The notes under the pieces: model-generated
What the model saw: the letters and a program-made list of their open reading frames with translations, nothing else
What the model was told of the DNA's origin: nothing
Database searches by the model: none
IMG/VR virus record: IMGVR_UViG_3300036823_000075
Location: 1 to 26,658 of that record
Length of the DNA: 26,658 nt
Direction: 5' to 3' (one strand)
From: a virus
In this document: positions 8,523 through 23,618 of the stretch, piece after piece
Position numbering within the stretch: position 1 is the stretch's first letter
Layout: every line of letters begins with the position of its first letter
Position numbers and translations under genes: made by a program

Positions 8523-9454
8523 TCACCGGCCAGCCCATCGAGCAGGACTACCGAAAGTCATCATGAAACGTTCATAACTTCCGGGTTCCGGCTCGGCCGG
8601 GCTTTTCTTCTGCTGTTGTTCTTCCTCGTCGAACTCGTCCTCAAGACCGATCTTGATAGCCGAATCCAGCAGCGCGTTCTTGGCGCCTTCCTTCTCGACC
8701 GGCACCGTCGCTGCGACATAGGTGCAGATCAATCTGGTCTGCCATTTCAGCCAATGCTGGCGTTCCCACCGCGCGTAGTGCTGCGCTTCCCCGATCGCGG
8801 CGAGGCATTGTCGGAGCCGTCCAAGAGGGAGGTCGCGGATTTGATCGTCCGACCAGCCGTACTGCGACGAGACGAGGTGGAACGCCCGCGAGAACCCTCC
8901 GAGGAGTCCGAGATCGACTCCTTCGGGCTCGGGGACTTCGACGAGGTCGGCATCTGGCCGGTCATCTCCGCCAGCTTGAACATGCTGGCCAGGCGTTTTC
9001 CCAGTGCCTGAACGTCACCAGCTTCCCGCTTGATGACGGCCTCGATAATCGTGACCAGGTCATCCAGATCCGGGTTGACCAGTTCCTCGTCGAGGGCATC
9101 CCAGAGCAACTGGTTCTGCTCGACGTCCTGCTTGTTCAGGCCCCGCTTACCGCCCGGCTCGACGAGCCCGCTCGGGTAGCACAGGCTGCGAACGAAGTCG
9201 ACGGTCTCGTTCTCCGCGTCCGGAATGGACAGCAGGGTGACCGAGAGCAGGCGGCCCATGAACTCACTCGTGTCCTCGGCTGCCTGAATGTTCAGCAGCC
9301 CGGCCTCGCGCATGCCCGGCAGCGCCCCGTGGGTGAGGATGCGCATCAGCTTGAGGAACTGCCGAAGCCGCAAAGCCTCAAGCTGGACGACCATTCCGGA
9401 GCGCAAAGTGACGGACTCCGGAATGGGGTCCAGCTTGTCGATTTCAGTCGCCAT
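8523..9454 (-). CDS. tail assembly chaperone, frameshifted long form (gpGT-like), 310 aa
   Basis: Made by a -1 slip at 9002-8996. The reading leaves the gpG frame after codon 153 and continues as TPGQHVQAGGDDRPDADLV, then a well-formed domain (LGGFSRAFHLVSSQYGWSDDQI, LPLGRLRQCLAAIGEAQHYARWE, HWLKWQTRLICTYVA) and an acidic, Gln/Lys-rich tail, to TGA at 8523. In lambda the GT fusion binds the tube protein through T and the tape measure through G, so tail length and tube growth depend on the G:GT ratio. The T part has no good start codon of its own near the overlap, which supports frameshifting as its only means of expression. The stop is 20 bases before the tape measure start. Confidence 0.85.
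8747..9454 (-). CDS. tail assembly chaperone, short form (gpG-like), zero-frame product up to 235 aa
   Basis: ATG at 9452-9454 with GGAGG 6 bases before it. The first ~160 residues are a genuine helical protein (LRSGMVVQLEALRLRQFLKLMRIL, FMGRLLSVTLLSIPD, DLDDLVTIIEAVIKREAG), typical of chaperones that coat the tape measure during tube assembly. After codon 153 the zero frame stays open another 82 codons, but becomes Ser/Arg-rich low complexity, while the -1 frame looks like real protein. The short form is thus either a gpG with an unusual 82-residue tail or one trimmed after translation. Confidence 0.82.
   Translation of the reverse strand: MATEIDKLDPIPESVTLRSGMVVQLEALRLRQFLKLMRILTHGALPGMREAGLLNIQAAEDTSEFMGRLLSVTLLSIPDAENETVDFVRSLCYPSGLVEPGGKRGLNKQDVEQNQLLWDALDEELVNPDLDDLVTIIEAVIKREAGDVQALGKRLASMFKLAEMTGQMPTSSKSPSPKESISDSSEGSRGRSTSSRRSTAGRTIKSATSLLDGSDNASPRSGKRSTTRGGNASIG
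8970..9002 (-). promoter_or_regulatory. programmed -1 frameshift signal: GGGAAAA slippery site plus hairpin
   Basis: GGGAAAA lies at 9002-8996 in phase as G-GGA-AAA relative to the chaperone gene (GGA is codon 152, AAA codon 153), the canonical X-XXY-YYZ form. Six bases after it GCCAGC pairs with GCTGGC across the 8-base loop ATGTTCAA (8989-8970), at the distance expected for a stimulatory hairpin. The coding quality changes frame exactly here. Confidence 0.88.
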
Positions 9455-10113: not shown

Positions 10114-10401
10114 TTAACGCAGGGTCTGCCCGATCGCGCAGCAACGATCATCGTGACTACACGTGCTATACCGGCACAGCCAGAGTTCCTCGCCTCGGGT
10201 ACTGATCAGCTCGCCGACGAAGTTGTAACTGTGAAAGATTCGAAAGAAGTGATTGGTCTTCCGGCGGAAAGCCTTCGCACAGTCAGTGCACGTGAACTCA
10301 ATCAGCCCGTCGGGCAAGTACTTTGCGAATTCCTCGCCGAGCTTGAGTTTCGTGAAGAGCTTCTTCGGCCCGACCGGGCACCGAACCTCAACCGTGCTCA
10401 T
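10114..10401 (-). CDS. Com-like zinc protein, 95 aa
   Basis: ATGA overlap with the glycosyltransferase stop. The start VEVRCPVGPKKLFTKLKL and central FTCTDCAKAFRR resemble the treble-clef/zinc-ribbon type of small phage proteins related to Mu Com, but only one cysteine stands in the first knuckle, so metal binding there would need another ligand. FHSYNFVGELISTR is a segment also typical of actinophage members. Four more cysteines lie in the tail (LCRYSTCSHDDRCC). Com activates translation of a phage DNA-modification gene by binding RNA; by analogy this could regulate the coupled glycosyltransferase, but that is speculation. Confidence 0.65.
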   Translation of the reverse strand: MSTVEVRCPVGPKKLFTKLKLGEEFAKYLPDGLIEFTCTDCAKAFRRKTNHFFRIFHSYNFVGELISTRGEELWLCRYSTCSHDDRCCAIGQTLR

Positions 10402-11531
10402 AAGACCACCGGGATTTCACGCTCTTCACGGACCCGGGCCTGAGCCACCCGGTACTTGTGCAGCACCCGCTCACCGCGCTCACCGATCTCACCGACCCGC
10501 TCCATGAGCCGGTCAAGGACCTTCGGCCAGTTACACATCGCCGGGATGAGGTCGGCGGCCAGCTCAGCCTTGCGGGCCACCTCACCGCGGTTGGCGTAGG
10601 CGTGCAGCATCAGTTGCTTGAGGTGGTCCTTGGACGCCTTCGCCCACCGGCAGTTCGGGATCCCCGCGTTCAGCGGCTCCAGCTGGTACTCCAGCGGGTA
10701 AGCGATCTGGCCCGACAACCACTGGGTGTGCCCGCCCCAGTTGGTAGCGATCACGGTGCCGCCGGTGGACAGCATCTCCAGCGCGGGCAGGTTCTTGCCC
10801 TCGCCGTGGCTGGGTGCGAGGAGCACGTGCTGGCTGTAGTAGAAATCCCGTAGAACCTCTTGAGGCCAAACCTCGTAGAAGATCCTCACGCCGGGAACGG
10901 CTTCTTCGATCTTGGAGTGCAGGCCGGGGGCGACGGTCTTGATGTTGAGCCGGATGTCGATCTCCGGGTGTTCCTCCCGCAGCTCCCGGAACGCGTCGAT
11001 CGCCACGAACGGGTCCTTGCGCGGGCCCAGTGCACCGACCATGCAGAAATTGAACGGCTTCGCCGCCCAATCACGAGGCCGGGCGGGCCACATCTGCGGC
11101 CAATAGCCGCCCTGAACCGTGGCCTGACCCGTCGTGACATACGGCTTGAGAGCCTCGGTACTGACCTGGTCGTAGCCGACAACCAGGTCATAGTTCTTCA
11201 GGTTCTTCTTCAGCTTGGAACGGCCGGGCATGTTGTCCAGCGTCTCGAACTCCCACATCGTCCAGGCGACGGTGATCTTCGCGGCCCGGCGGGCGCCATC
11301 GGTGATCCCGAAATGCGTCGGATCCCAGTGATGCAGATGCAGATCGAACGGTGCTTCGAGGCGTTTGGTGAACAGCTCGGCAACCGCTGACGGAAGCGGT
11401 GCCTGAACAGCGTGCGGCTCCAGATAGACGTCACACCCGGCATCCCGTAACGCCAAAGCCAACGCACACCCATCATTCCCGTAGCCAGAATGTGCGTTGA
11501 TCGGAGAATTCAGAAGGACTCGCACAGTCAT
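10398..11531 (-). CDS. GT4-type glycosyltransferase embedded in the structural operon, 377 aa
   Basis: ATG at 11529-11531 in an ATGA overlap with the terminator gene. The N-terminal half has LLNSPINAHSGYGNDGCALALAL, the Gly-rich acceptor-side loop of GT-B enzymes. The C-terminal half begins NFCMVGALGPRKDPFVAIDAF, followed by the EX7E motif of retaining GT4 enzymes (E244 and E252 in HGEGKNLPALEM) and GGTVIATNWGG. These contact the nucleotide-sugar. It most likely transfers a sugar to a protein or glycan; in a late virion operon the obvious substrates are the tail tube, capsid or the Thr/Ser-rich fibres, but a role in modifying the host wall or phage DNA cannot be excluded. Soluble, without signal peptide or membrane span. 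Its stop overlaps the next ATG. Confidence 0.85.
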   Translation of the reverse strand: MTVRVLLNSPINAHSGYGNDGCALALALRDAGCDVYLEPHAVQAPLPSAVAELFTKRLEAPFDLHLHHWDPTHFGITDGARRAAKITVAWTMWEFETLDNMPGRSKLKKNLKNYDLVVGYDQVSTEALKPYVTTGQATVQGGYWPQMWPARPRDWAAKPFNFCMVGALGPRKDPFVAIDAFRELREEHPEIDIRLNIKTVAPGLHSKIEEAVPGVRIFYEVWPQEVLRDFYYSQHVLLAPSHGEGKNLPALEMLSTGGTVIATNWGGHTQWLSGQIAYPLEYQLEPLNAGIPNCRWAKASKDHLKQLMLHAYANRGEVARKAELAADLIPAMCNWPKVLDRLMERVGEIGERGERVLHKYRVAQARVREEREIPVVL

Positions 11532-13438: not shown

Positions 13439-14101
13439 TCACACCAGGGCGGTGAGCTTCGGCGCGGCCCGCTTCAGCCGCAGCTTCTCCGCCCGCGCGA
13501 TCTCCTCTTCCGGCGGCGGCCGGAGGCGACCATCGCCGCGTTCGGCTTTCATGGCCTCCCAGGTGCCGTCGGCGTAGGTCTTGCCGGGCCACGCACCGGA
13601 CCGGAACATGACCTTCCCGAACCGCTCGACCTGCGCGAAGTCGCTGTCTCGTAGGTCGAGCCAGGTCACTCCGAAGCGGTTGAACGTGTCCTTGTAGGCC
13701 TGGCCACCGACCGCGAATTCCAGTTCGTCGCCGCGGTACATGACCCGCCCGTTGACCGTGAGACCGTCTTCGAGGAAGTGGACCAGGATGTTGCTCTCGT
13801 CGCCCTCGACGATGTTCTCGTCCACCTCGGGCTCGGGGTCCTCGCGACCCTGCTTCTTCGCGAGCAGGTCGCGCAGCATCTTGATCTCTTGCTGCTCCGG
13901 CGTCAGCTCAGTCTCGGGAACCCCTACAGGTACGGAGGTGACGGTGGGGTCGAGGATTGGCGCCGCTTCGCTTTCGGCGGGCCGGGGCTCTCGATCCGCC
14001 AAGTCCTCGGCCTGCGCGGCCACGGGCGGCGGGGCGTCTCGCTTCTCGGCTGGGACTGCACGGGGCTGACGCCGCCCATTAGCTGGTACTCCTCGGGGCA
14101 T
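13439..14101 (-). CDS. conserved-type phage protein upstream of connectors, 220 aa
   Basis: The ATG at 14099-14101 follows AAAGGTGGTGG and lies after the propeller B stop; a longer frame from 14254 overlaps that gene and reads as shadow. The N-terminal ~65 residues are Pro/Ala/Arg-rich and disordered. A predicted helix (LTPEQQEIKMLRDLLAKKQG) follows, then an acidic linker (DPEPEVDENIVEGDES) and a folded beta-rich domain (NILVHFLEDGLTVNGRVMYRGDELEFAVGG ... FGVTWLDLRDSDFAQVERFG). The end is basic. I do not recognise a named family. As it is the first gene of the connector block it may be a head or head-tail accessory protein; this is inference from order. Confidence 0.75.
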   Translation of the reverse strand: MPRGVPANGRRQPRAVPAEKRDAPPPVAAQAEDLADREPRPAESEAAPILDPTVTSVPVGVPETELTPEQQEIKMLRDLLAKKQGREDPEPEVDENIVEGDESNILVHFLEDGLTVNGRVMYRGDELEFAVGGQAYKDTFNRFGVTWLDLRDSDFAQVERFGKVMFRSGAWPGKTYADGTWEAMKAERGDGRLRPPPEEEIARAEKLRLKRAAPKLTALV

Positions 14102-14169
14102 GGTTGGCCACCACCTTTCACCGTCCTTATCGGTGTCAGGCAAAGACCACGGCAGCAGGGCGCGGGCGG

Positions 14170-15195
14170 TCAGTTGTGTTTCACCGGGTAGATCTGCCCG
14201 GTGAGGTGCCGGGCCGCCCCGCTCGCTGCGCCCGTGCCGTACAGCGATATCCACGGGCTGGTGCTGGACCCCACCGCGAGGTAGTTACCGGACGGCGACC
14301 ACGCCGCCGTGTTTCCGTTGGAGGTAGGCAGGGTGGTCGGGTTGGCAAGCTTGGTCAGTGTGGTGCCGTCGAACCCGTACACCGAAATAAACGGGGTGGC
14401 CCCGGAGGCGACAGCAAGATAGTTGCCGGACGGCGACCACGCCACCGCGTACCCGGCAGCGGTGGGCAAAGTGGCCGGATCTGCAAGCTTGGTGAGCGTG
14501 CTGCCGTTGAATGAGTACACCGAAATGAACGGGGTGGCGCCGGAGGCGATAGCGAGGTGGTTTCCGGACGGCGACCACGCCGCCCCGTTCCCGGAGGCGG
14601 TGGGCAGGGTGGCGGGGTTCGCCAATTTCGTCAGCGTGGTGCCGTCGAACCCGTACACCGACATCCATGGACTGGCGGCGATGGCGACGGCGAGATAGTT
14701 GCCTGACGGCGACCACGCCACCGCACGACCGTAGCTGGTGGGCAGGGTGGCAGGGTTGGCAAGCTTGGTCAGGGTGCTGCCATTGAACGCATACACCAAA
14801 ATAAACGGACTGGCGGTACTGCCGATGACGAGGTGGTTGCCCGACGGCGACCACGCCGCCGAAACGCAGGCGGCGGTAGGCAGGGTGGCGGGGTCGGCGA
14901 TCTTCGTCAGAGTGCTGCCATTGAATGCATACACCAACATCCACGGGCTGGCCCCGGAGGCGATAGCGAGGTGGTTTCCGGACGGCGACCACGCCGCCGC
15001 GTTCCCGTTGGAGGTAGGCAGGGTGGTGGGATCGGCGATCTTCGTCAGAGTGCTGCCATTGAATGCATACACCGACATCCACGGGCTGGCTCCGGACCCC
15101 ACCGCGAGGTAGTTGCCGGACGGCGACCACGCCACCGCGTACCCGGTGCTGGAGGGCAGACCACTGTCGGGAAACAGGGCGTAGAGGGTGGGCAT
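14170..15195 (-). CDS. seven-bladed WD40/TolB-like beta-propeller protein, copy B, 341 aa
   Basis: ATG at 15193-15195 with GGAG 8 bases upstream, the site lying in a duplicated remnant of the fibre gene. Its architecture is identical to copy A: head with ALFPDSGLP, seven 46-residue blades with AWSPSGN(Y/H)LA(V/I) and VY(A/G)F(N/D)G(S/T)TLTK, and a closing tail ARHLTGQIYPVKHN that resembles copy A's VKQVTGQVYP. Blades 1-3 and 5 carry the FNGSTLTK variant and blades 4 and 6 the FDGTTLTK variant, so variants are mixed as if exchanged between blades. Like copy A it is predicted to be a closed toroid of beta-sheets, most plausibly an adhesin. No catalytic motif is visible. Possible alternatives are a structural cap or an anti-host protein released into the cell. 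Confidence 0.82.
   Translation of the reverse strand: MPTLYALFPDSGLPSSTGYAVAWSPSGNYLAVGSGASPWMSVYAFNGSTLTKIADPTTLPTSNGNAAAWSPSGNHLAIASGASPWMLVYAFNGSTLTKIADPATLPTAACVSAAWSPSGNHLVIGSTASPFILVYAFNGSTLTKLANPATLPTSYGRAVAWSPSGNYLAVAIAASPWMSVYGFDGTTLTKLANPATLPTASGNGAAWSPSGNHLAIASGATPFISVYSFNGSTLTKLADPATLPTAAGYAVAWSPSGNYLAVASGATPFISVYGFDGTTLTKLANPTTLPTSNGNTAAWSPSGNYLAVGSSTSPWISLYGTGAASGAARHLTGQIYPVKHN
14230..15144 (-). repeat. seven 138-bp tandem repeats, propeller copy B
   Basis: Same 138-base period and same core as the copy A array. Long blocks are nearly identical between the two arrays, for example around GTGGTGCCGTCGAACCCGTA, so exchange between the arrays is possible. Confidence 0.85.
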
Positions 15196-15200
15196 GGCGG

Positions 15201-15243
15201 CTACTCCGTCGCAACATAGACGAGGGTGAGGGTCACTGCGGTC
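15201..15243 (-). repeat. remnant copy of the fibre gene 3' end carrying a ribosome binding site
   Basis: Aligned base by base, 34 of 43 positions match 16296-16338, the end of the 982-aa fibre gene. It still reads TAVTLTLVYVATE-stop, against TAVTVTLVYVATE-stop in the fibre. The shared GACGGAGTA contains the GGAG used by the propeller gene that follows in each case. It therefore marks the edge of a duplicated [fibre end + propeller] unit. The frame is open back to 15290 and reads 29 residues before the stop, overlapping the end of propeller A in another frame. Confidence 0.75.
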
Positions 15244-15261
15244 GGGTTCGTATCGGCTGGG

Positions 15262-16290
15262 TCACGGGTATACCTGCCCGGTGACCTGCTTCACCACGGC
15301 TCCTGGCCCGGTCGCCACCCCAAGGCCTGTGGCGTACACCGATATCCACGGGCTGGCACTGGACCCCACAGCGAGATAGCTGCCGGACGGCGACCACGCG
15401 GCCCCACGCACGGCAGCGGTTGGCAGGCTGGCTGGGTCGGCGATCTTGGTCAGAGTGGTGCCGTCGAACGCGTAAGCCGACACCCAGGGGCTGGCGTTCG
15501 ACCCGACGGCAAGATAGTTGCCTGACGGTGACCACGTCGCCGCGTACCCGGTCCCGCTGGGCTTGGTGGCCGGATCAGCCAGTTTCGTCAGCGTGGTGCC
15601 GTCGAACCCGTACACCGACATCCACGGGCTGGCGCCAGAGCCAAGAGCAAGATAGTTGCCGGACGGCGACCACGCCACCGACTGCCCGTTGCCATTGGGC
15701 AGGGTGGCGGGGTTGGCCAATTTCGTCAGCGTGGTGCCGTCGAACCCGTACACCAGCATGTACGGGGTGGCGTTGACTGGCAGAGCCAAATAGTTGCCCG
15801 ACGGTGACCACGCCACCGATGCGACGGAGGCGGTGGGCAAAGTGGCCGGGTTGGCCAATTTCGTCAGCGTGGTGCCGTCGAACCCGTACACCGACATCCA
15901 TGGACTGGCGTTCCAACCGAATGCGAGGTAGTTGCCCGACGGCGACCACGATGGCATGTACACGGCGGCAGTGGGGGGGGTGGCCGGGTTCGCCAGTTTC
16001 GTCAGCGTGGTGCCGTCGAACCCGTACACCAGCAGGTACGGGCTGGCTCCGGACCCCACCGCGAGGTAGTTACCGGACGGCGACCATGCCACTCCGTTCC
16101 CGGTGCCGGAGGGCAGGGTTACGGGGTTGGCGATCTTGGTGAGGGTGCTGCCATTGAACGCGTACACCGCCACGTACGGGGCAGCACTGAAGGCAACGGC
16201 GAGATGATTACCCGACGGTGACCACGCCACCCCGCTCCCAGTGCCGGTGGGCAAACCACTGTCAGGAAACAGAGAGTTGATGTCAGGCAC
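15262..16290 (-). CDS. seven-bladed WD40/TolB-like beta-propeller protein, copy A, 342 aa
   Basis: GTG at 16288-16290, with GGAG from the end of the fibre gene 9 bases upstream. After a short head (SLFPDSGLP) come seven repeats of exactly 46 residues (138 bases), each with AWSPSGNYLAV, then VYGFDGTTLTKLANP and ATLPT; the seventh breaks off into a different tail (VVKQVTGQVYP). AWSPSG-x-x-LAV is the outer-strand signature of WD40 and TolB-type propeller blades, and seven units would close one ring, the N-terminal FPDSGLP completing the last blade. No membrane span or signal peptide is present. Blades differ mostly at the residues around the blade junction and near the SPW motif. A likely role is receptor or glycan binding on the virion surface, inferred from its place after the fibre. 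It is paralogous to the next gene. Confidence 0.82.
   Translation of the reverse strand: MPDINSLFPDSGLPTGTGSGVAWSPSGNHLAVAFSAAPYVAVYAFNGSTLTKIANPVTLPSGTGNGVAWSPSGNYLAVGSGASPYLLVYGFDGTTLTKLANPATPPTAAVYMPSWSPSGNYLAFGWNASPWMSVYGFDGTTLTKLANPATLPTASVASVAWSPSGNYLALPVNATPYMLVYGFDGTTLTKLANPATLPNGNGQSVAWSPSGNYLALGSGASPWMSVYGFDGTTLTKLADPATKPSGTGYAATWSPSGNYLAVGSNASPWVSAYAFDGTTLTKIADPASLPTAAVRGAAWSPSGSYLAVGSSASPWISVYATGLGVATGPGAVVKQVTGQVYP
15320..16239 (-). repeat. seven 138-bp tandem repeats, propeller copy A
   Basis: Period exactly 138 bases (46 codons). The most constant part in plus-strand reading is the stretch around GACGG(C/T)GACCACG, which encodes WSPSG on the minus strand. Six full units and a seventh with a diverged end. 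The high DNA similarity between units would allow slipping and recombination. Confidence 0.85.
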
Positions 16291-16295
16291 GGGCG

Positions 16296-19244
16296 TTACT
16301 CCGTCGCCACGTAGACGAGGGTCACCGTGACCGCCGTCGCGCCGGTCGGGGTGACCACGATAGGGATCGCCGTCGTCGGCACCGTCTCCATCGAGTAGCC
16401 GGACGGAACGGGCGACAGCTTTTGCAGGGTGCTGCCCACCGTCAGGTATTCCAGCACCAGCCCCGAATTGTCGGGTACCGCCGTGGTGATGGCCCGGGAC
16501 GTGTCGGCGCTCGCACTGGCCGCGTCGGTGTAAACGCGGACCCGGGCCGCCGCCGAGGTCGTCAATGCCAGCAGCCGGTAGCCGGTAGCCATCGTGATGG
16601 TGCCGCTGTAGTTGGTTCCGGCGACCGCACCCGAGGTGGTGTAGGTGGCGGTGGCTCGAACCGGACTACTACCGCCGCTGACGCCAGACACCGCCGTGGT
16701 GACGAACTGCGTGGTCGCCAACTGGGTGGTGTTGGTACCTGCTGTCGCGGTTGGTGCGGAAGGAATTCCGGTGAACGTCGAGGTGCCCGTGACCGTGAGG
16801 TTGGTGCCGACGATCAGGGAATCGTCCGTCTTGAGCGTGTCGGCAGCAGATCGGTACAGGTTGGTGTCCTGTGTAACCGTTCCTGGACCCCAGCCGACTT
16901 TGCCGTCCGCGCCAACGTTCACCCGGCCGAACGAGTCACCATTGACCGCACCACTCAGCAGAGACGTGCCGACCGCCGACAGCGTGGCGGCGATCCCGCC
17001 GGTCATCGTGTCACCGGCCTTGGCGACCTTCAACGCGTCCGCCGCCGCCTGCGCGGTGGAGACCGGCTTCGCCGTGTCGGCGGTGTTGTCGACGTTGGAC
17101 AGTCCGACGTGTGCTTTCGTCAGGCCGGTCGGAGTGCCCGTGAAGGCCGGGGACGCCAGCGGGGCTTTCAGGTCCAAGGCGGCCTGAGCAGCGGTGGAGA
17201 CCGGCTTGGCGGCGTCCGTGGTGTTGTTGACATTGGCCAAACCCACGTCAGCGGAGGTCAGGACAACTACACCCTGCCGCCCTGCAACTGAGGTGACCAG
17301 GTTCGTCGCCGGATCCCCAGCGGGGCCAGTCGCGCCGGTCGCACCCGTGGAGCCCGTTGCCCCGGTGGCGCCAACCGGAACGGTGAAGTTGAAGACGGCA
17401 GCGCTGCTGGATCCCGAGTTGGTGACCGCCGCGTTGCTACCGGGTGCACCGCTGGTCGTTGTACCGATTGCGATCGTGGCTGCGGTGCCCGTCGTGCCCG
17501 TTGTGCCCGTGGCGCCGGTGGCGCCGGTGGCCCCGTCTGCCCCCTTGGCGGCGAACAGCGTCCAGTTCGTGGTGTCGGTGGCCGGGTTAGTCGTTCCGGA
17601 GGCCGAGTTGACGGTCAGCAGGTAGACCTGGCCGCTGTAGGTGACCAGGTCGTTCTTGTAATACTGGGTGCCCGATACCCAGGCGCCCCGGAAGTTGTGA
17701 CCGGCGGCTTGGGTCTCGTAGATCGTGTTCGAACTGGCCGACGGGACTGCGGTTCCGCTGTAGGCGATCAGGAGCCGGTAGGTGCTGCCGCCGTAGGTGA
17801 CGACGTCGTTCACGGCGTAGCTGGTGCCCGAGACCCAGGCCCCCCGGAAGTTGAGGCCGGTGCCGTTCGTGCCAGCTGCACCCGTGGCTCCGGTGTCGCC
17901 CTTGGGAACGGTGAAGTTGAAGACGGCTGCGCTGCTGGATCCCGAGTTGCTAACCGCTGCGTTCGACCCGGCCGCGCCGGTGGTGGTGGTGCCGACCGCC
18001 ACAGAGGCGGCCGTCCCGGCCGTGCCGGTTGCTCCGGTGGCACCTGCCGCGCCCTGCGGCACGGTGAAGTTGAGGACAGCGGCTGAGTTGCTACCGCTGT
18101 TGGTGACAGCCGCGTTGCTGCCTGCCGCCCCGGTGGTGGTCGTGCCCACGGCGACACTGGCAGCTGTTCCCGCAGCACCCGTGGAGCCGGTTGCTCCCGT
18201 AGCCCCGGTCGTACCCGCAGCACCCTGAGGAACGGTGAAGTTGAGGACGGCGGCGGAACTGCTGCCGGAATTGGTGACCGACGCGTTGCTTCCGGCGGCG
18301 CCGGTGGTGGTCGTTCCCACGGCCACGGTGGCAGCCGTACCAGTCGCTCCGGCGGATCCCGTAGCGCCGGTCGCACCAGCGGTTCCGGCCGGGCCGGTGG
18401 GACCAGTCGGTCCCGTAGCTCCAGCGGTCCCGGCGGAACCGACAGCTCCCGGGTCCCCCTTGGAGACCAGCAGACTCCAGCTTGCGGAGGCTTCCGGGTC
18501 GTCCCCGGTCGAGTTCGGCAGGACGGCGATGAACGCAGACCCGTTCCAGGTGACCACATCGCCGACCCCGTAGGTGGCGACGGCGCTGTAGGTGCCCCGA
18601 GGCGTCATCCCGACCGGGCCTCTAGCCCCGTCGTCACCGGCCAGCGCGAGGACCGACCAGTTGATGTCGTCGCCGGGCAGCGGCTCCACACCGACGTTGT
18701 CCTGCACCGCGAAGAACGTAGAACCGTCGTGGGTGACGATCGCCCCGGCCGGGTAGCTGCTACCCACCAACCAGGCCCCGAGGTAGGAGTCGGCCAGCTC
18801 CCACGCCGGGAAGGTGAAGTCGAAGACCGCGTCGTTGTTCGTGCCGCTGTTGCTGATGGCCAGGACGGCGCCCAATCCGCCGTTGGTGACGGTGCCGACG
18901 GTGACGGTCGCCGCATCCCCCTGGTCACCGTGCAGGACCAGCAGCCCCCAGTGGCTGTTGGAGGCGTCTGTGGCCGGGGCAACGCCGGTACTCGCCAGGA
19001 GCGCGACGAAGCCGTTCCCCTCGTACTGCACGACGTCGCCGATCGCGTAGGCGACCGAGACGCTCCAGTACCCCCGGTAGGAGATACCCGGTCCGCCAGT
19101 GCCACCGCCGCCGCCTCCGGCTTCCAGGGCGGCGAGTCGGACGGCGAGGGCAGAGTCCGCCGCGTCCACATAGCCCTTACGGACGGCCTGAACCGTGGTA
19201 CTCGCCGCCGGAATGTCCAGGGGGTTACCGAGAAACTTGGGCAT
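16296..19244 (-). CDS. mosaic collagen-like fibre with carbohydrate-binding-like modules, 982 aa
   Basis: ATG at 19242-19244, AAGGAGG 11 bases upstream. Order: N-terminal attachment segment (LDIPAAS, VRKGYVDAAD), a short coiled coil and poly-Gly hinge (43-52); three modules like family 5/12 carbohydrate-binding domains at about 56-105, 154-203 and 215-261, each with an aromatic, Y-x-x-GDVV-x-x-x-G and a closing W; collagen-like Gly-X-Y stretches (GATGATG, GPTGPTGPAG) at about 264-303, 341-360, 398-411, 448-463, 568-587 and 624-643; four copies of a ~34-residue beta module (VAVGTTTTGAAGSN ... FTVP) between them, plus a diverged fifth near 113-146; two more W-x-x-x-x-x-Y modules at 466-512 and 518-565; then fibre repeats (VGLANVNNTTDAAKPVST, VGLSNVDNTADTAKPVST) and a beta-rich tip ending TLVYVATE. 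It is a predicted trimeric receptor-binding fibre, possibly binding cell-wall sugars. The last codons contain the ribosome binding site of the next gene. Confidence 0.85.
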   Translation of the reverse strand: MPKFLGNPLDIPAASTTVQAVRKGYVDAADSALAVRLAALEAGGGGGGTGGPGISYRGYWSVSVAYAIGDVVQYEGNGFVALLASTGVAPATDASNSHWGLLVLHGDQGDAATVTVGTVTNGGLGAVLAISNSGTNNDAVFDFTFPAWELADSYLGAWLVGSSYPAGAIVTHDGSTFFAVQDNVGVEPLPGDDINWSVLALAGDDGARGPVGMTPRGTYSAVATYGVGDVVTWNGSAFIAVLPNSTGDDPEASASWSLLVSKGDPGAVGSAGTAGATGPTGPTGPAGTAGATGATGSAGATGTAATVAVGTTTTGAAGSNASVTNSGSSSAAVLNFTVPQGAAGTTGATGATGSTGAAGTAASVAVGTTTTGAAGSNAAVTNSGSNSAAVLNFTVPQGAAGATGATGTAGTAASVAVGTTTTGAAGSNAAVSNSGSSSAAVFNFTVPKGDTGATGAAGTNGTGLNFRGAWVSGTSYAVNDVVTYGGSTYRLLIAYSGTAVPSASSNTIYETQAAGHNFRGAWVSGTQYYKNDLVTYSGQVYLLTVNSASGTTNPATDTTNWTLFAAKGADGATGATGATGTTGTTGTAATIAIGTTTSGAPGSNAAVTNSGSSSAAVFNFTVPVGATGATGSTGATGATGPAGDPATNLVTSVAGRQGVVVLTSADVGLANVNNTTDAAKPVSTAAQAALDLKAPLASPAFTGTPTGLTKAHVGLSNVDNTADTAKPVSTAQAAADALKVAKAGDTMTGGIAATLSAVGTSLLSGAVNGDSFGRVNVGADGKVGWGPGTVTQDTNLYRSAADTLKTDDSLIVGTNLTVTGTSTFTGIPSAPTATAGTNTTQLATTQFVTTAVSGVSGGSSPVRATATYTTSGAVAGTNYSGTITMATGYRLLALTTSAAARVRVYTDAASASADTSRAITTAVPDNSGLVLEYLTVGSTLQKLSPVPSGYSMETVPTTAIPIVVTPTGATAVTVTLVYVATE

Positions 19245-19285: not shown

Positions 19286-20836
19286 TCAGCCGACGACAAC
19301 AACGCGGTACTGACCCGAAGTCGGGGCCTGACCGAAGTCGACGGTGACGGTATTGGCGTCGGTACGGGACACCTCGGCGTAGACCGTGTCGTACGGCGCG
19401 GCGGTCGCGAAGATCTGCACCTGCACGTCGCGGGTGTTCAGGCTGTGGGTGACCGCGATACTCGTCGCTGTGCCGTCGCCGATGGTTGCCGAGAACTTGC
19501 GCGGCATCACCGTCAGGTCAACGTGGACGCCGGTGGAGTCGACCACGATGCCCTGACCGGCAACCACCTCCAGACCGGCCGAGGTGACCCCGATGCCGCC
19601 GTTGGCGTCCAGCGTGGCCGAGATGCCGTTGCTGTCGACCGTGATGCCCATGTTCGACGACGGCTTGATCGCCAGGCCGGTCGCCGTACTGACCAGGCCA
19701 CCGGCCGGGTCGGTGTTGACGGCCAGGCCGTTGCTATCGACCGACAGGCCCTTGTTCGCGGCCAGGACCGCGCCGATGCCGGTGTTGTCGACGCTGATGC
19801 CGGAGTTCGGCTTGGCGACGGCGGCCACACCGTTGGTGTCGACCGTCAGACCGCCGGACGGGTTCGCGACCACCACTAGGCCGCTGCTGGACGCTGCCAG
19901 GCCGGACGAGGCGGGCAGCTTCGCCGCCACACCGGCTGCACCGACCTGAAGACCACCAGCCGGATCGGCGACCGCGACAACCCCGGTAGCGTCGACCGCC
20001 ACACCATTGCCTGGCGTGACCTGAAGGCCCGTCGCGTCGACCGAGAGGCCCTTGTTGGTGGCCAGGACGGTCTGTACGCCGGTCGCGTCGACCGCGAGAC
20101 CCGAGTTGGCCTTGATGACCACCGACGCGCCGTTGGCGTCGGTCATCAGACCACCGGCGGTCGTCGGCACGAACTTCAGACCCGAGGCGTCTACGGCCAG
20201 ACCCGAGTTCGACGCGATCTTCGCCGCGACGCCGTTCGTCCCGACCGCCACACCGCCGACCGGGTCGGCGACCACGCCGACGCCCGAAGCGACCGAGATG
20301 CCGCCGTTGGAGGCCGCGATCGCGGTGACCACGTGGTTGGTGATGTCGACCGAGCCGCTGCCCGTGTAGACCGGCGAGGTACCGGCGTTCAGCAGCGCCC
20401 AGTTCAAACTGGTGGTGCCGACCGTGATCGGTCCCGGGGTGATCAGGACGAACGTCTTGTTGCCGTTGGTCGTGCCCTCGGAGACGGTGACTGCCGCGCC
20501 TGGCTCGACCTCGGAGTCCTGGTCGGCGTCCGTCGCCCGGGTCAGGGCCGACGTGGCTCCATTGAAGACATAGATGCCGTTCTCAGCACCGTTGGTCTGC
20601 CCCATCAGCAGGATGCGGTTGCCGTTCGCCAGCGTGACGCTGTCGATCGTGGCACCCGGCGAACTCACGCTGACGTTGCTGGTCGCGGCCACCCGGACCG
20701 CGTTCTTCCAAACCAGACCCGTTGCGATGTTGTCGACGTACTGCTTGGTGACGGCGTCGCTGGAGAGAGCCGGAGCGCCGACATTCTGGATGCGGTTGTT
20801 GTTGAGATCAACAACATTGGTGAAGTTAATAGGCAT
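19286..20836 (-). CDS. fibre protein with triple-beta-spiral-like shaft, 516 aa
   Basis: ATG at 20834-20836 after AGGAGA (8-base spacing). Residues 1-45 (VVDLNNNRIQNVGAPALSSD, AVTKQYVDN) are the attachment motif typical of phage fibre N-termini. Residues 46-150 form a beta-rich domain (NGNRILLMGQ, ENGIYVFNG) also common in phage fibres. Residues ~178-440 hold about 16 repeats of 16-17 residues of the form (G/S)G(L/I/V)xVDxxG(L/V)xV, strongly like the shaft repeats of adenovirus fibre, which form a trimeric beta-spiral. Residues 445-516 are a tip domain (ATSIAVTHSLNTRDVQV ... GQYRVVVVG). The product is therefore expected to be a slender trimeric fibre. Its gene is close behind the capsid gene rather than after the tape measure, so it could be mounted on the head. 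Confidence 0.85.
   Translation of the reverse strand: MPINFTNVVDLNNNRIQNVGAPALSSDAVTKQYVDNIATGLVWKNAVRVAATSNVSVSSPGATIDSVTLANGNRILLMGQTNGAENGIYVFNGATSALTRATDADQDSEVEPGAAVTVSEGTTNGNKTFVLITPGPITVGTTSLNWALLNAGTSPVYTGSGSVDITNHVVTAIAASNGGISVASGVGVVADPVGGVAVGTNGVAAKIASNSGLAVDASGLKFVPTTAGGLMTDANGASVVIKANSGLAVDATGVQTVLATNKGLSVDATGLQVTPGNGVAVDATGVVAVADPAGGLQVGAAGVAAKLPASSGLAASSSGLVVVANPSGGLTVDTNGVAAVAKPNSGISVDNTGIGAVLAANKGLSVDSNGLAVNTDPAGGLVSTATGLAIKPSSNMGITVDSNGISATLDANGGIGVTSAGLEVVAGQGIVVDSTGVHVDLTVMPRKFSATIGDGTATSIAVTHSLNTRDVQVQIFATAAPYDTVYAEVSRTDANTVTVDFGQAPTSGQYRVVVVG
19517..20305 (-). repeat. about 16 coding repeats of 16-17 codons (fibre shaft)
   Basis: Tandem degenerate repeats encoding GGLxVDxxGVxA-type units, residues ~178-440 of the 516-aa fibre. 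Units such as SGLAVDASGLKFV, SGLAVDATGVQTV, KGLSVDATGLQVT and KGLSVDSNGLAVN are clearly related, and alternate units are more alike than neighbours, hinting that the array grew by copying larger blocks of several units. Confidence 0.8.
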
Positions 20837-21351: not shown

Positions 21352-21900
21352 TTATTGATTCTGCCGGTTCAGCTGCGGTCCACCGGGATACAGCTTGTTG
21401 ACGCAAACCAGGAACTTGTCACCCTTGGGGTCGAGGTCCGCCGGGTTCGTCCGCGCACAGTAGATGACCGTCAGCTCGTACTGCTTCACCGTGTCGAGGA
21501 TCTTCGCCTGGTTAGCCGAATTGACCTGCCCACACACCCCGGTTGAGTTCACACAGTCCAGCAGCGTCTGGTTCGTCGTCTGCACAGCCCCGGCAATGTC
21601 CTTCGTCTGCTTTGCTGACTTCCGGGCAGCCGACAGGTTGAACGCATTGGTGACCGCCAACGCCAGCAAGACCACCATCGTCACCGCAACAAGGAAGGTG
21701 ACCAGCCGCATCTGATGCAGGTTCTTGTCCAACGCATCGACCTTCCGGTCACGAGCCTTCGTCTCGCTGCGGACGGTATCGACCAGGTCGGTCATGGTCC
21801 GGTTGGACGCCTCGTTCGCCGCGATCAGTTCGTTAATCGCCAATGAAGACCTCAGCTCCGAAGGGGTCTGCTCCTCAGGGTCAGGCACGGGTTGAGTCAC
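21352..21900 (-). CDS. single-span membrane protein with cysteine-containing C-terminal domain, 182 aa
   Basis: GTG start at 21898-21900 in a GTGA overlap with the upstream stop. Residues 1-62 are hydrophilic and probably helical (ELIAANEASNRTMTDLVDTV), residues 66-88 are a clear membrane span (LVTFLVAVTMVVLLALAVTNAF), and the C-terminal ~90 residues contain four cysteines (C116, C123, C148, C166) suited to disulfides outside the cytoplasm. With KARDRK before the span the likely topology is N-in/C-out, opposite to the 118-aa protein. A cysteine-paired outer domain would suit an envelope-exposed protein such as a superinfection-exclusion or lysis-timing factor, but nothing in the sequence identifies it. 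It lies between the capsid and fibre genes, a place normally reserved for virion proteins. Confidence 0.72.
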   Translation of the reverse strand: MTQPVPDPEEQTPSELRSSLAINELIAANEASNRTMTDLVDTVRSETKARDRKVDALDKNLHQMRLVTFLVAVTMVVLLALAVTNAFNLSAARKSAKQTKDIAGAVQTTNQTLLDCVNSTGVCGQVNSANQAKILDTVKQYELTVIYCARTNPADLDPKGDKFLVCVNKLYPGGPQLNRQNQ

Positions 21901-22085
21901 TTCTTCACATCCTTCAGCTCACTACGCAAGCGAGCAATAAGGTCAGCCTGCAAAGCAAGGATGCGTTTCTGCTCCTCAACCGCCTGCTGCAACTGCCACA
22001 GCGCATCATCAGAGTCATCCCGCTGGTCGTCGCTCATCTGCGGAATGCTCCTCAACAGTGCAATAAACGCCCGATCATCCACCAC
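21897..22085 (-). CDS. small coiled-coil protein, ~62 aa
   Basis: Preferred start is GTG at 22085, with GAGGA 7 bases upstream, overlapping the previous stop by 11 bases; a longer frame from 22145 would overlap the upstream gene by 71 bases. The product is hydrophilic, with an acidic DDQRDDSDD patch and then a helix with leucines spaced as in coiled coils (LWQLQQAVEEQKRILALQADLIARLRSELKD), ending KDVKK. Its TGA overlaps the next GTG in a GTGA, so the three small genes here are translationally coupled. Function unknown; it may partner the coiled-coil parts of the flanking membrane proteins. Confidence 0.6.
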   Translation of the reverse strand: MVDDRAFIALLRSIPQMSDDQRDDSDDALWQLQQAVEEQKRILALQADLIARLRSELKDVKK

Positions 22086-22431
22086 GGCGAGTCCTCGGGT
22101 TCGTGGCCTCATGAGTTTCTTGATCAGTTCGGCGGATGCTGTCACGGACCTTCATCTCAGTGATGAGTTGGATGGCTTCTTCGAGAACCTCAGCAACCTG
22201 CTTATACAGATCGGTCGCAGCAACCGTCTTCGGCAGTAGCTCGCCCCTGATGAAGTCGTTCAACTCCTTCACCTGAGCCTCAGCCCTATCTGTACGTTCC
22301 CGCTCCCGCGACAAAGAACCGCGGGTATACAAGACCAACAGAATGACGATGACGCCCAGTGCGCCGTACTGAACGAGGGTGAGCAGCGGATCAGAGGTAT
22401 CAGCAGCTGCCGCCCAATACACGATGCTCAC
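22075..22431 (-). CDS. small membrane protein with cytoplasmic coiled coil, 118 aa
   Basis: The first GTG (22431) lies almost on top of GGAGGAGGT, so a GTG three codons later (22422, 115 aa) with about 9 bases of spacing may be the true start. Residues 18-36 (TLVQYGALGVIVILLVLYT) form one membrane span, followed at once by positive RGSLSRERERTDR, which predicts N-out/C-in. The remainder is a heptad-like charged helix (AEAQVKELNDFI, AATDLYKQVAEVLEEAIQLI) and a basic tail. No endolysin or known holin motif is nearby. It is the first gene after the capsid gene and overlaps the next small gene. It could be a holin-like protein, but position and lack of a lysin make this a guess; function unknown. 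Confidence 0.7.
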   Translation of the reverse strand: MSIVYWAAAADTSDPLLTLVQYGALGVIVILLVLYTRGSLSRERERTDRAEAQVKELNDFIRGELLPKTVAATDLYKQVAEVLEEAIQLITEMKVRDSIRRTDQETHEATNPRTRRGG

Positions 22432-22616: not shown

Positions 22617-23618
22617 TTACGGCTGGCTGACGTCTGCCACGTAGATCATCTGCTCCGGCCGCGTGATGACCGGCAGAAGGTTCCACTCCAGGAGGTACTG
22701 GCGGGCGCTCGGGTCCGGGTCTTTCCAGGTCTTGGTGTATTTGCCGGTGTAGTTGTCCGGTGCCTCGTCGTCGGCGGTGGGGCCGATGAACATCTCGACC
22801 GGGCGCTGGTCGGTGTAGTTACCCATGAACAGCGCGTTGTCCGAGACGAAGAGGGTGGAGTTACCCGCGTCGTCGTCGTAGACGGTCTCGATGGTGTTCC
22901 AGTTCAGACCCATGAAGCCCGGCAGGGTGCCCGAGGAGTAGTACTGGTCCTTCATGCGGTCGCTCATCAGCAGCGGCGCGGAGGCGCCGTTGGCGGCGAA
23001 CGAGTCGAAGATGTAGGCCATGGTCAGCTCGGTGACGAAGGCGTCCTTGGCCTCGACGCGGCCGTCGCGGCGGATGAGCCGCTTCCAGGCGCGGATGTCG
23101 TTGACGATCTGCTGCGGGGTGGCGGTGTCCCAGCCGACGGTCGGGGTCGGGTGGTGGCTGGCCGGGAACTGGTAGTCGACGAACGCCTGGACGTCCGGGA
23201 AGTCGAAGCTCAGGGTGCCCTTGAGCGCCGCCCAGATCATGTACTCGGCGAAGTTGTCGAACCGCTGGTTCAGGTCGTTGATCTCGCGCAGGACGGCCTG
23301 TTCGGCGTTGGTCGCGGCGAGCTGACCCGGCTGGCGCAGCCAGTGGATGGTGGTCGGCTCGAAGACCTTCTTCTCGCGAAGGTAGACGAACGCGGCGGAT
23401 GCCTGCGAGCGACCGAGCCGGGGCACGATGTGGGCCTCGGAGTTCGGGACGTTCGGCTTGGCGACCATCCGGGAGCCCTTGATGATGTCCCAGACAACGC
23501 TCGGGAAGGGCCACGGCGTCTGCGGGATCGTCGAGAGCATGGTGAGCGTCTCGGGGGTGGTGAATTTTTCGACCACGCCGCGCAGGACAACGGGATCGAG
23601 GAGCGGAATGTTGGGCAT
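22617..23618 (-). CDS. major capsid protein (lambda gpE-like, HK97 fold)
   Basis: 333 aa, ATG at 23616-23618 with AGGAGA 9 bases upstream. The size and sequence pattern fit the lambda gpE major capsid family: LLDPVVLRGVVEKF at the start, KPNVPNSEAHIVPRLGRS, the long helix-like LREINDLNQRFDNFAEYMIWAAL, LSFDFPDVQAFVDYQFP, a WDTATPQQIVNDIRAWKRLI segment, and a beta-rich end LLEWNLLPVITRPEQMIYVADV. It would form the icosahedral shell as hexamers and pentamers. There is no long cleavable N-terminal scaffold domain, consistent with a separate protease-scaffold upstream. A perfect 12-bp hairpin begins 23 bases after its stop, as expected for a very highly expressed gene whose message is ended or stabilised there. 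Confidence 0.92.
   Translation of the reverse strand: MPNIPLLDPVVLRGVVEKFTTPETLTMLSTIPQTPWPFPSVVWDIIKGSRMVAKPNVPNSEAHIVPRLGRSQASAAFVYLREKKVFEPTTIHWLRQPGQLAATNAEQAVLREINDLNQRFDNFAEYMIWAALKGTLSFDFPDVQAFVDYQFPASHHPTPTVGWDTATPQQIVNDIRAWKRLIRRDGRVEAKDAFVTELTMAYIFDSFAANGASAPLLMSDRMKDQYYSSGTLPGFMGLNWNTIETVYDDDAGNSTLFVSDNALFMGNYTDQRPVEMFIGPTADDEAPDNYTGKYTKTWKDPDPSARQYLLEWNLLPVITRPEQMIYVADVSQP

Follow-up and report, generated by a model that had tools for sequence, protein, structure and literature searches.

What role could two adjacent beta-propeller genes play directly behind the fibre gene of a tailed phage? The question is raised by a 26.7-kb fragment (26,658 nucleotides, hereafter the window) of an uncultured tailed phage, available as a virus record, with a G+C content of 64.6% and structural genes on the minus strand. 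Gene B (15262..16290, minus strand; 342 aa, GTG start) begins 5 nt past the stop codon of a fibre gene and is followed by a downstream copy, gene A (14170..15195, minus strand; 341 aa, ATG start); each encodes a seven-bladed WD40-type propeller. The reading that we favour, with some reserve, is that both proteins are receptor- or glycan-binding heads docked by their C-terminal tails on the tip of the fibre, where docking, incorporation into the virion and the binding of a receptor are what we infer.

A first-pass annotation had described twin adjacent genes with seven 46-residue blades each, and both the open reading frames and the repeat spacing agree with it. The WSPSG unit recurs seven times in each protein, at residues 23, 69, 115, 161, 207, 253 and 299, and all six spacings are exactly 46 aa, a regularity far beyond chance. 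Correspondingly, 138-bp arrays span both genes (Tandem Repeats Finder). The blades had been called almost identical; they are indeed repeats, while the wording was a little strong, as complete blades are approximately 55-82% identical in protein sequence, both within and between A and B. Over their whole length, A and B are 66-67% identical. The seventh, C-terminal unit is without strand d, which would be supplied from the N-terminus by LFPDSGLP, a segment aligning with LANPATLP, and it is therefore that we count exactly seven blades.

As for the fold, it had been given as WD40/TolB, and the WD40 half of this assignment was retained. WD40-type propeller models of Pfam match A and B strongly (PF00400 scored 44.3 and 51.4 bits, cut-off 27, with no single stretch passing alone), even if the blades carry Tyr-Gly/Ala where classical WD40 repeats have Trp-Asp. 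The TolB/PD40 class was rejected: the profile search that the annotation had proposed placed WD40-type models best and PD40 (37.7 and 39.9 bits) under several of them. The proposed structure prediction was run on B with AlphaFold2, using an alignment of A and B only, and gave a seven-bladed ring of 26 strands (pLDDT 75, pTM 0.79), with residues 1-12 and 322-342 below pLDDT 50 and with no domain besides the propeller, nor a separate N-terminal domain. This model matched solved seven-bladed propellers confidently, at Z 40-42 overall (Foldseek, VIA-align), including 2ymu (Z 41.6, rmsd 1.5 over 292 residues; VIA-align) and the designed propeller 7bie (Z 41.5). In a viral structure library, B matched POR1 Orf76, a 562-aa entry (the length of the CGphi29 protein) and several WD40/YVTN proteins of uncultured phages.

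The linkage of the propeller genes to a fibre, also proposed earlier, is borne out by the short gap upstream of B. The fibre gene (16296..19244, minus strand) encodes 982 aa with collagen-like repeats and CBM_5_12-like modules, and its profile matches are CBM_5_12 (6.5e-21), Collagen (1e-4) and the tail fiber family phrog_5073 (3.6e-63). Five stretches resemble CBM_5_12 (E 6.5e-21); being carbohydrate-binding modules, they would add sugar-binding sites. The last 110 aa of the fibre form a tip domain (16299..16628, minus strand; PHROG 15343 / 9627), the putative socket. All 18 aligned tip domains, that is, the one in the window and 17 from contig L044, marine contigs and cyanophages, matched phrog_15343 and phrog_9627, and the profile of this domain found no match among solved structures. 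The domain is widespread on cyanophage fibres, where the next gene encodes a subtilisin-like protease, or another protein followed by a small protein.

L044 is the closest relative of the window. The two share the order of tube gene (91%), connector genes, 271-aa gene, two propeller genes and fibre tip domain. The L044 propellers comprise 335 and 340 aa, and the probable orthologue of A is located at L044:11016-12038. Its tip domain is 85% identical to that of the window while the rest of the fibre gene differs, this upstream gene being short and without collagen repeats. The L044 propellers end in VTGQVYP and VTGQIYPVERS, which leads to the tails of the window proteins.

The tail of A (14173..14214, minus strand; ..ARHLTGQIYPVKHN) ends in LTGQIYPVKHN and that of B (15265..15294, minus strand) in ..KQVTGQVYP, the latter having pLDDT below 50 and lying outside the propeller. 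A tail motif R-x-[ST]-G-x-[VILM]-[YFW]-P-R is common to the C-termini of genes directly behind tip-bearing fibres, whether these encode proteases, small proteins or propellers. Examples, at or near the C-terminus, are TGQLYPRGNQ (Sf-CH1b), TGQMYPRFNK (S-SCSM1), STGQTYPRR (L155) and SGRVYPRPR (L151). The core [ST]Gx[VILM][YFW]P is present in both window proteins (TGQVYP in B, TGQIYP in A); the Arg following YP, found in nearly all cyanophage tails, is missing from them.

When the strict motif was sought in the last 25 residues of 1,474 ORFs, it occurred 11 times, in all 11 cases behind a tip-bearing fibre. At 79 further tip loci, the tail was present in 63 of 68 complete next genes, against none of 232 control ORFs. 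A second set (80 loci) provided 75 next genes, of which 43 contained the strict motif, and most of the remainder had either an added C-terminal domain or a looser core (GVKYPR, RQVFPR, SVRYPR). This looser core, which was chosen after the non-strict cases had been seen, also appeared in 7 of 805 controls, six of these being small or split head proteins encoded after a tip-bearing fibre. Many of the loci are near-duplicates, and these counts therefore overstate independence. Among proteases with a tip-bearing fibre upstream (cyanophage and marine set), 14 of 16 had the tail, the other two showing the near-matches NAQMYPR and RSQVWPR. It was absent from all six cyanophage proteases that have no tip-bearing gene next to them (S-SCSM1_228, P-SSM2_297, Sf-CH8, AG-345-E02, S-T4 and AG-345-L05; Fisher p = 0.0018 for the association of protease tail and tip, duplicates collapsed). 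The tail was similarly confined when 114 phage WD40 propellers with a genuine C-terminus were compared: only four carried it, those from the window and L044, and no others stood beside a tip domain. As one protease superfamily accounts for most carriers (a cluster of 160 and a two-member group), the number of independent kinds of carrier is about three, namely proteases, small proteins and propellers. In the cyanophage proteases L159, L160 and L257-L259, an extra C-terminal domain, plastocyanin-like by eye and ending ..YYYICQ.H..M.., follows the motif, so that the motif can also be internal.

The two propeller genes are most likely to have originated by tandem duplication. The spacer between B and A (15196..15261, minus strand) contains a decayed copy of the 3' end of the fibre gene (TAVTLTLVYVATE*) with a GGAG ribosome-binding site; its local alignment to the fibre end scored 28, the maximum among 2,000 shuffles being 20. 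From this decayed fibre end ahead of A, duplication of the fibre end together with the propeller emerges as the most likely source of A. In the L044 spacer, no such remnant was detected by comparison with its own fibre end, as 698 of 2,000 shuffles aligned equally well; a single ancestral duplication for the window and L044 is suggested by the C-terminal tails. Blades are more similar within a genome (mean DNA identity 0.754-0.763) than to the blade at the same position in the orthologous L044 gene (0.693). Exact runs common to A and B reach 57 nt, whereas none of three pairs compared between the genomes yielded a shared run of 25 nt. This excess of similarity within genomes indicates homogenisation between blades and between genes; independent duplications are another possible account.

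In WD40 proteins, the d-a and b-c loops, together with the beginnings of strands a and c and the end of strand b, conventionally belong to the top face. These are the sites at which entropy was high among the 12 complete blades; the a-b turn was invariant (zero entropy), and the c-d turn varied little. With faces assigned by strand order rather than from coordinates, and the invariant SPSGN turn left out, entropy in the window was 1.09 for the top half and 0.51 for the bottom half (permutation p = 0.005). The L044 blades showed the same bias (p = 0.0005). Structural constraint on the bottom turns could account for part of the variability of the top face.

In the model that we propose, A and B represent a detachable adhesin head present in two copies, both of them seven-bladed WD40 rings. 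The disordered C-terminal tail with its TGQ[VI]YP core would plug into the tip domain of the collagen-like fibre whose gene immediately precedes B, the fibre would display the propellers at its tip, and the variable face of the ring would contact a receptor or glycan on the host surface. Were the fibre trimeric, its three sites could be divided between the two heads, which bear the same tail. A binding role of the propellers is likely, judging from their variable face, the partner domain on the tip and the docking tail, and they are best read as exchangeable fibre-tip heads. The more general rule would be a plug and socket, in which a conserved tip domain takes any head with the R-x-[ST]-G-x-[VILM]-[YFW]-P-R tail, so that proteases, small proteins and WD40 propellers are exchanged and, in the window, two propeller heads are present whose blades have been reshuffled by recombination; we regard the chances for and against this rule as evenly balanced. 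Were it true, an attachment signal of approximately ten residues and its receiving domain would be named, the exchange of unrelated heads would be explained, and fibre-tip proteins of many uncultured phages would become recognisable from sequence. The large, unannotated family of phage WD40 proteins would gain a testable role, and that of the subtilisin-like proteases behind marine cyanophage fibres could be tested directly.

Related arrangements are known. In the gp37-gp38 fibres of T2, S16 and PP01, a separate fibre-tip protein carries the variable receptor-binding surface (PMC12892980), and it is by analogy with gp38 on gp37 in T2-type phages that we picture the propeller at the fibre tip, its tail anchored in the tip domain. 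Like gp38, gene B lies directly behind the fibre gene; gp38, however, is a polyglycine-helix adhesin attached through its N-terminal domain, whereas the window encodes two copies of a WD40 propeller, each with a short tail at its C-terminus. The earlier remark that no standard siphovirus virion part was known with this architecture needs correction, since propellers are known from the receptor-binding protein (RBP) of Staphylococcus phage 80alpha (PMC7048315) and from fibres of contractile injection systems (PMC12923769). In the former, a five-bladed propeller platform is suggested to bind the wall teichoic acid of the host; the 80alpha/phi11 RBPs are trimeric, with a coiled-coil stem and tower domains, in contrast to the seven blades and the lack of any other domain here. 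In the latter, the eCIS eBAP3 fibres combine a beta-propeller lectin with a collagen shaft for target binding, much as in the window, but as domains of one fibre protein instead of separate genes joined by a putative plug. Related propellers (24-30% identity) occur in the Orf75-Orf76 pair of Pseudomonas phage POR1, directly after a collagen-like protein, and in gene 37 of Salicola phage CGphi29, inside a tail-collar-like domain; both phages differ from the window in having neither the tip domain nor the docking tail. In ZRG1, the propeller is carried on a proline-rich (PTPDPD)n linker to an N-terminal domain. The fusions of ZRG1 and CGphi29 are located at L005:7161-8963 and L003:7347-9035, respectively. 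Related propellers thus occur on other virion parts in independent phages (CGphi29, POR1 and ZRG1), which we count in favour of adhesin heads. Cyanophage pairs of tip fibre and subtilisin-like protease share the tip domain, the near-zero gene spacing and the tail motif with the window and differ in the head, which is a protease or another protein and not a propeller. The window architecture is a new variation of the known plan of a fibre with a tip adhesin, and the plug-and-socket rule, if verified, would be the more interesting result.

The genomic setting, annotated earlier as a phage structural operon, can be specified further: it is an accessory slot with the major capsid gene on one side and the head-tail connector genes on the other. 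One border is the major capsid protein gene (22617..23618, minus strand), the other a conserved 271-aa gene (13439..14254, minus strand; approximately 30-49% identical in capsid relatives), followed by the connector genes. In 23 relatives found through the capsid protein, the distance between these borders ranged from approximately 0.2 kb to more than 8 kb. The slot of the window also holds a 516-aa fibre or head-decoration-like protein (19286..20836, minus strand; phrog_2647 head decoration, 5.7e-73). In L007 and L008, whose capsid proteins are 83-84% identical to that of the window, the slot contains other fibres and then proteins bearing a SPDGITW repeat, which match EPTP and DUF6242 and, in L007, also the designed propeller Cake8. 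These repeats (SPDGITWTQRTLP..YGNGLFVAV; L007:14944-16746, L007:19590-20726 and L008:15202-17253) are unrelated to the window blades and are probably another propeller family. For the L007 protein, structure prediction without an alignment gave pLDDT 40, and its propeller nature is suggested by profile and sequence matches. Two sequence types of propeller thus appear to share one accessory slot behind collagen-like or other fibre genes. As for the host, the capsid proteins of the window and of Microbacterium phage Magritte share 66% identity, which suggests an actinobacterium; relatives of the capsid protein were not found in bacterial and archaeal genomes, and the host was therefore left unassigned.

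This setting bears on where the fibre resides. A location on the tail may be supposed; the fibre may instead sit on the head and not serve adsorption, because the slot adjoins the capsid gene and holds the head-decoration-like protein. Fibre and propellers would then decorate the capsid and help the phage to attach loosely to particles, polysaccharide or cell surfaces, in place of specific adsorption by the tail, an arrangement compatible with docking. We take this to be possible, if not probable, given that the head-decoration labels are database annotation only and that the annotation of tip-bearing fibres in cyanophages points to the tail or baseplate. Docking itself would be dispensable if tail and tip co-occurred merely through shared ancestry of a linked gene pair, as the predominance of a single protease superfamily travelling with the fibre might indicate. 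This we find rather unlikely, as small proteins and propellers, which group apart from the proteases, bear the same tail, and as proteases lacking a tip-bearing neighbour lack it too.

Less probable still is that the propellers are assembly chaperones of the Tfa or T4 gp38 kind, which would fold or cap the tip of the fibre and then be released. Chaperones are typically encoded right behind the fibre gene, and a tip-binding tail would suit a cap, but proteases and small proteins with this tail would make an odd set for one chaperone role, and two diverged copies have kept a variable face. Moreover, in the record of S-SCSM1, for which 45 virion proteins were identified by mass spectrometry (PMC9602691), the tip-bearing fibre (231) and its partner, the next gene (232), are both labelled virion proteins. 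An enzymatic function, for example of lactonase or sugar-modifying type, is to be considered on account of Pfam Lactonase matches of 44 and 28 bits (cut-off 21.7). We set it aside as very improbable, because these scores are exceeded by those of WD40-type models and because the best matches among solved structures are designed propellers and WD40 propellers that are not enzymes.

The view that such propellers are unusual in phages held for sequenced phages, relatives being present in 6 of 50,697 phage records, and failed for uncultured ones, where a degenerate blade pattern was detected in at least 119 IMG/VR contigs. Together with the assignment of the family to phrog_19311, annotated as of unknown function, this shows that it is large and barely annotated. 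Direct relatives of A were not found in viral contigs by peptide patterns, and a search of the open-access literature for cyanophage subtilases as fibre heads or for phage WD40 fibres found no relevant paper. Seven blades per ORF are the commonest number among propellers of uncultured phages; 14 and 21 also occur, in single ORFs and as multiples of seven. Two or three adjacent propeller genes are present in other uncultured phages as well (L063, L064, L066, L067, L073 and L094).

Some further features of the window may be mentioned. At the position of the tail assembly chaperone (8523-9454), two adjoining ORFs make a programmed frameshift possible, no slippery site being evident there at a glance. 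Between the capsid and fibre genes (21352-22431), three small genes are shared with L007 and L008, one of which has a weak holin match and one a membrane-like segment. Finally, a glycosyltransferase-like gene (10398-11531; named after the Magritte annotation) lies between the connector and tail-tube genes, in the same place as in Magritte and many of the capsid relatives.
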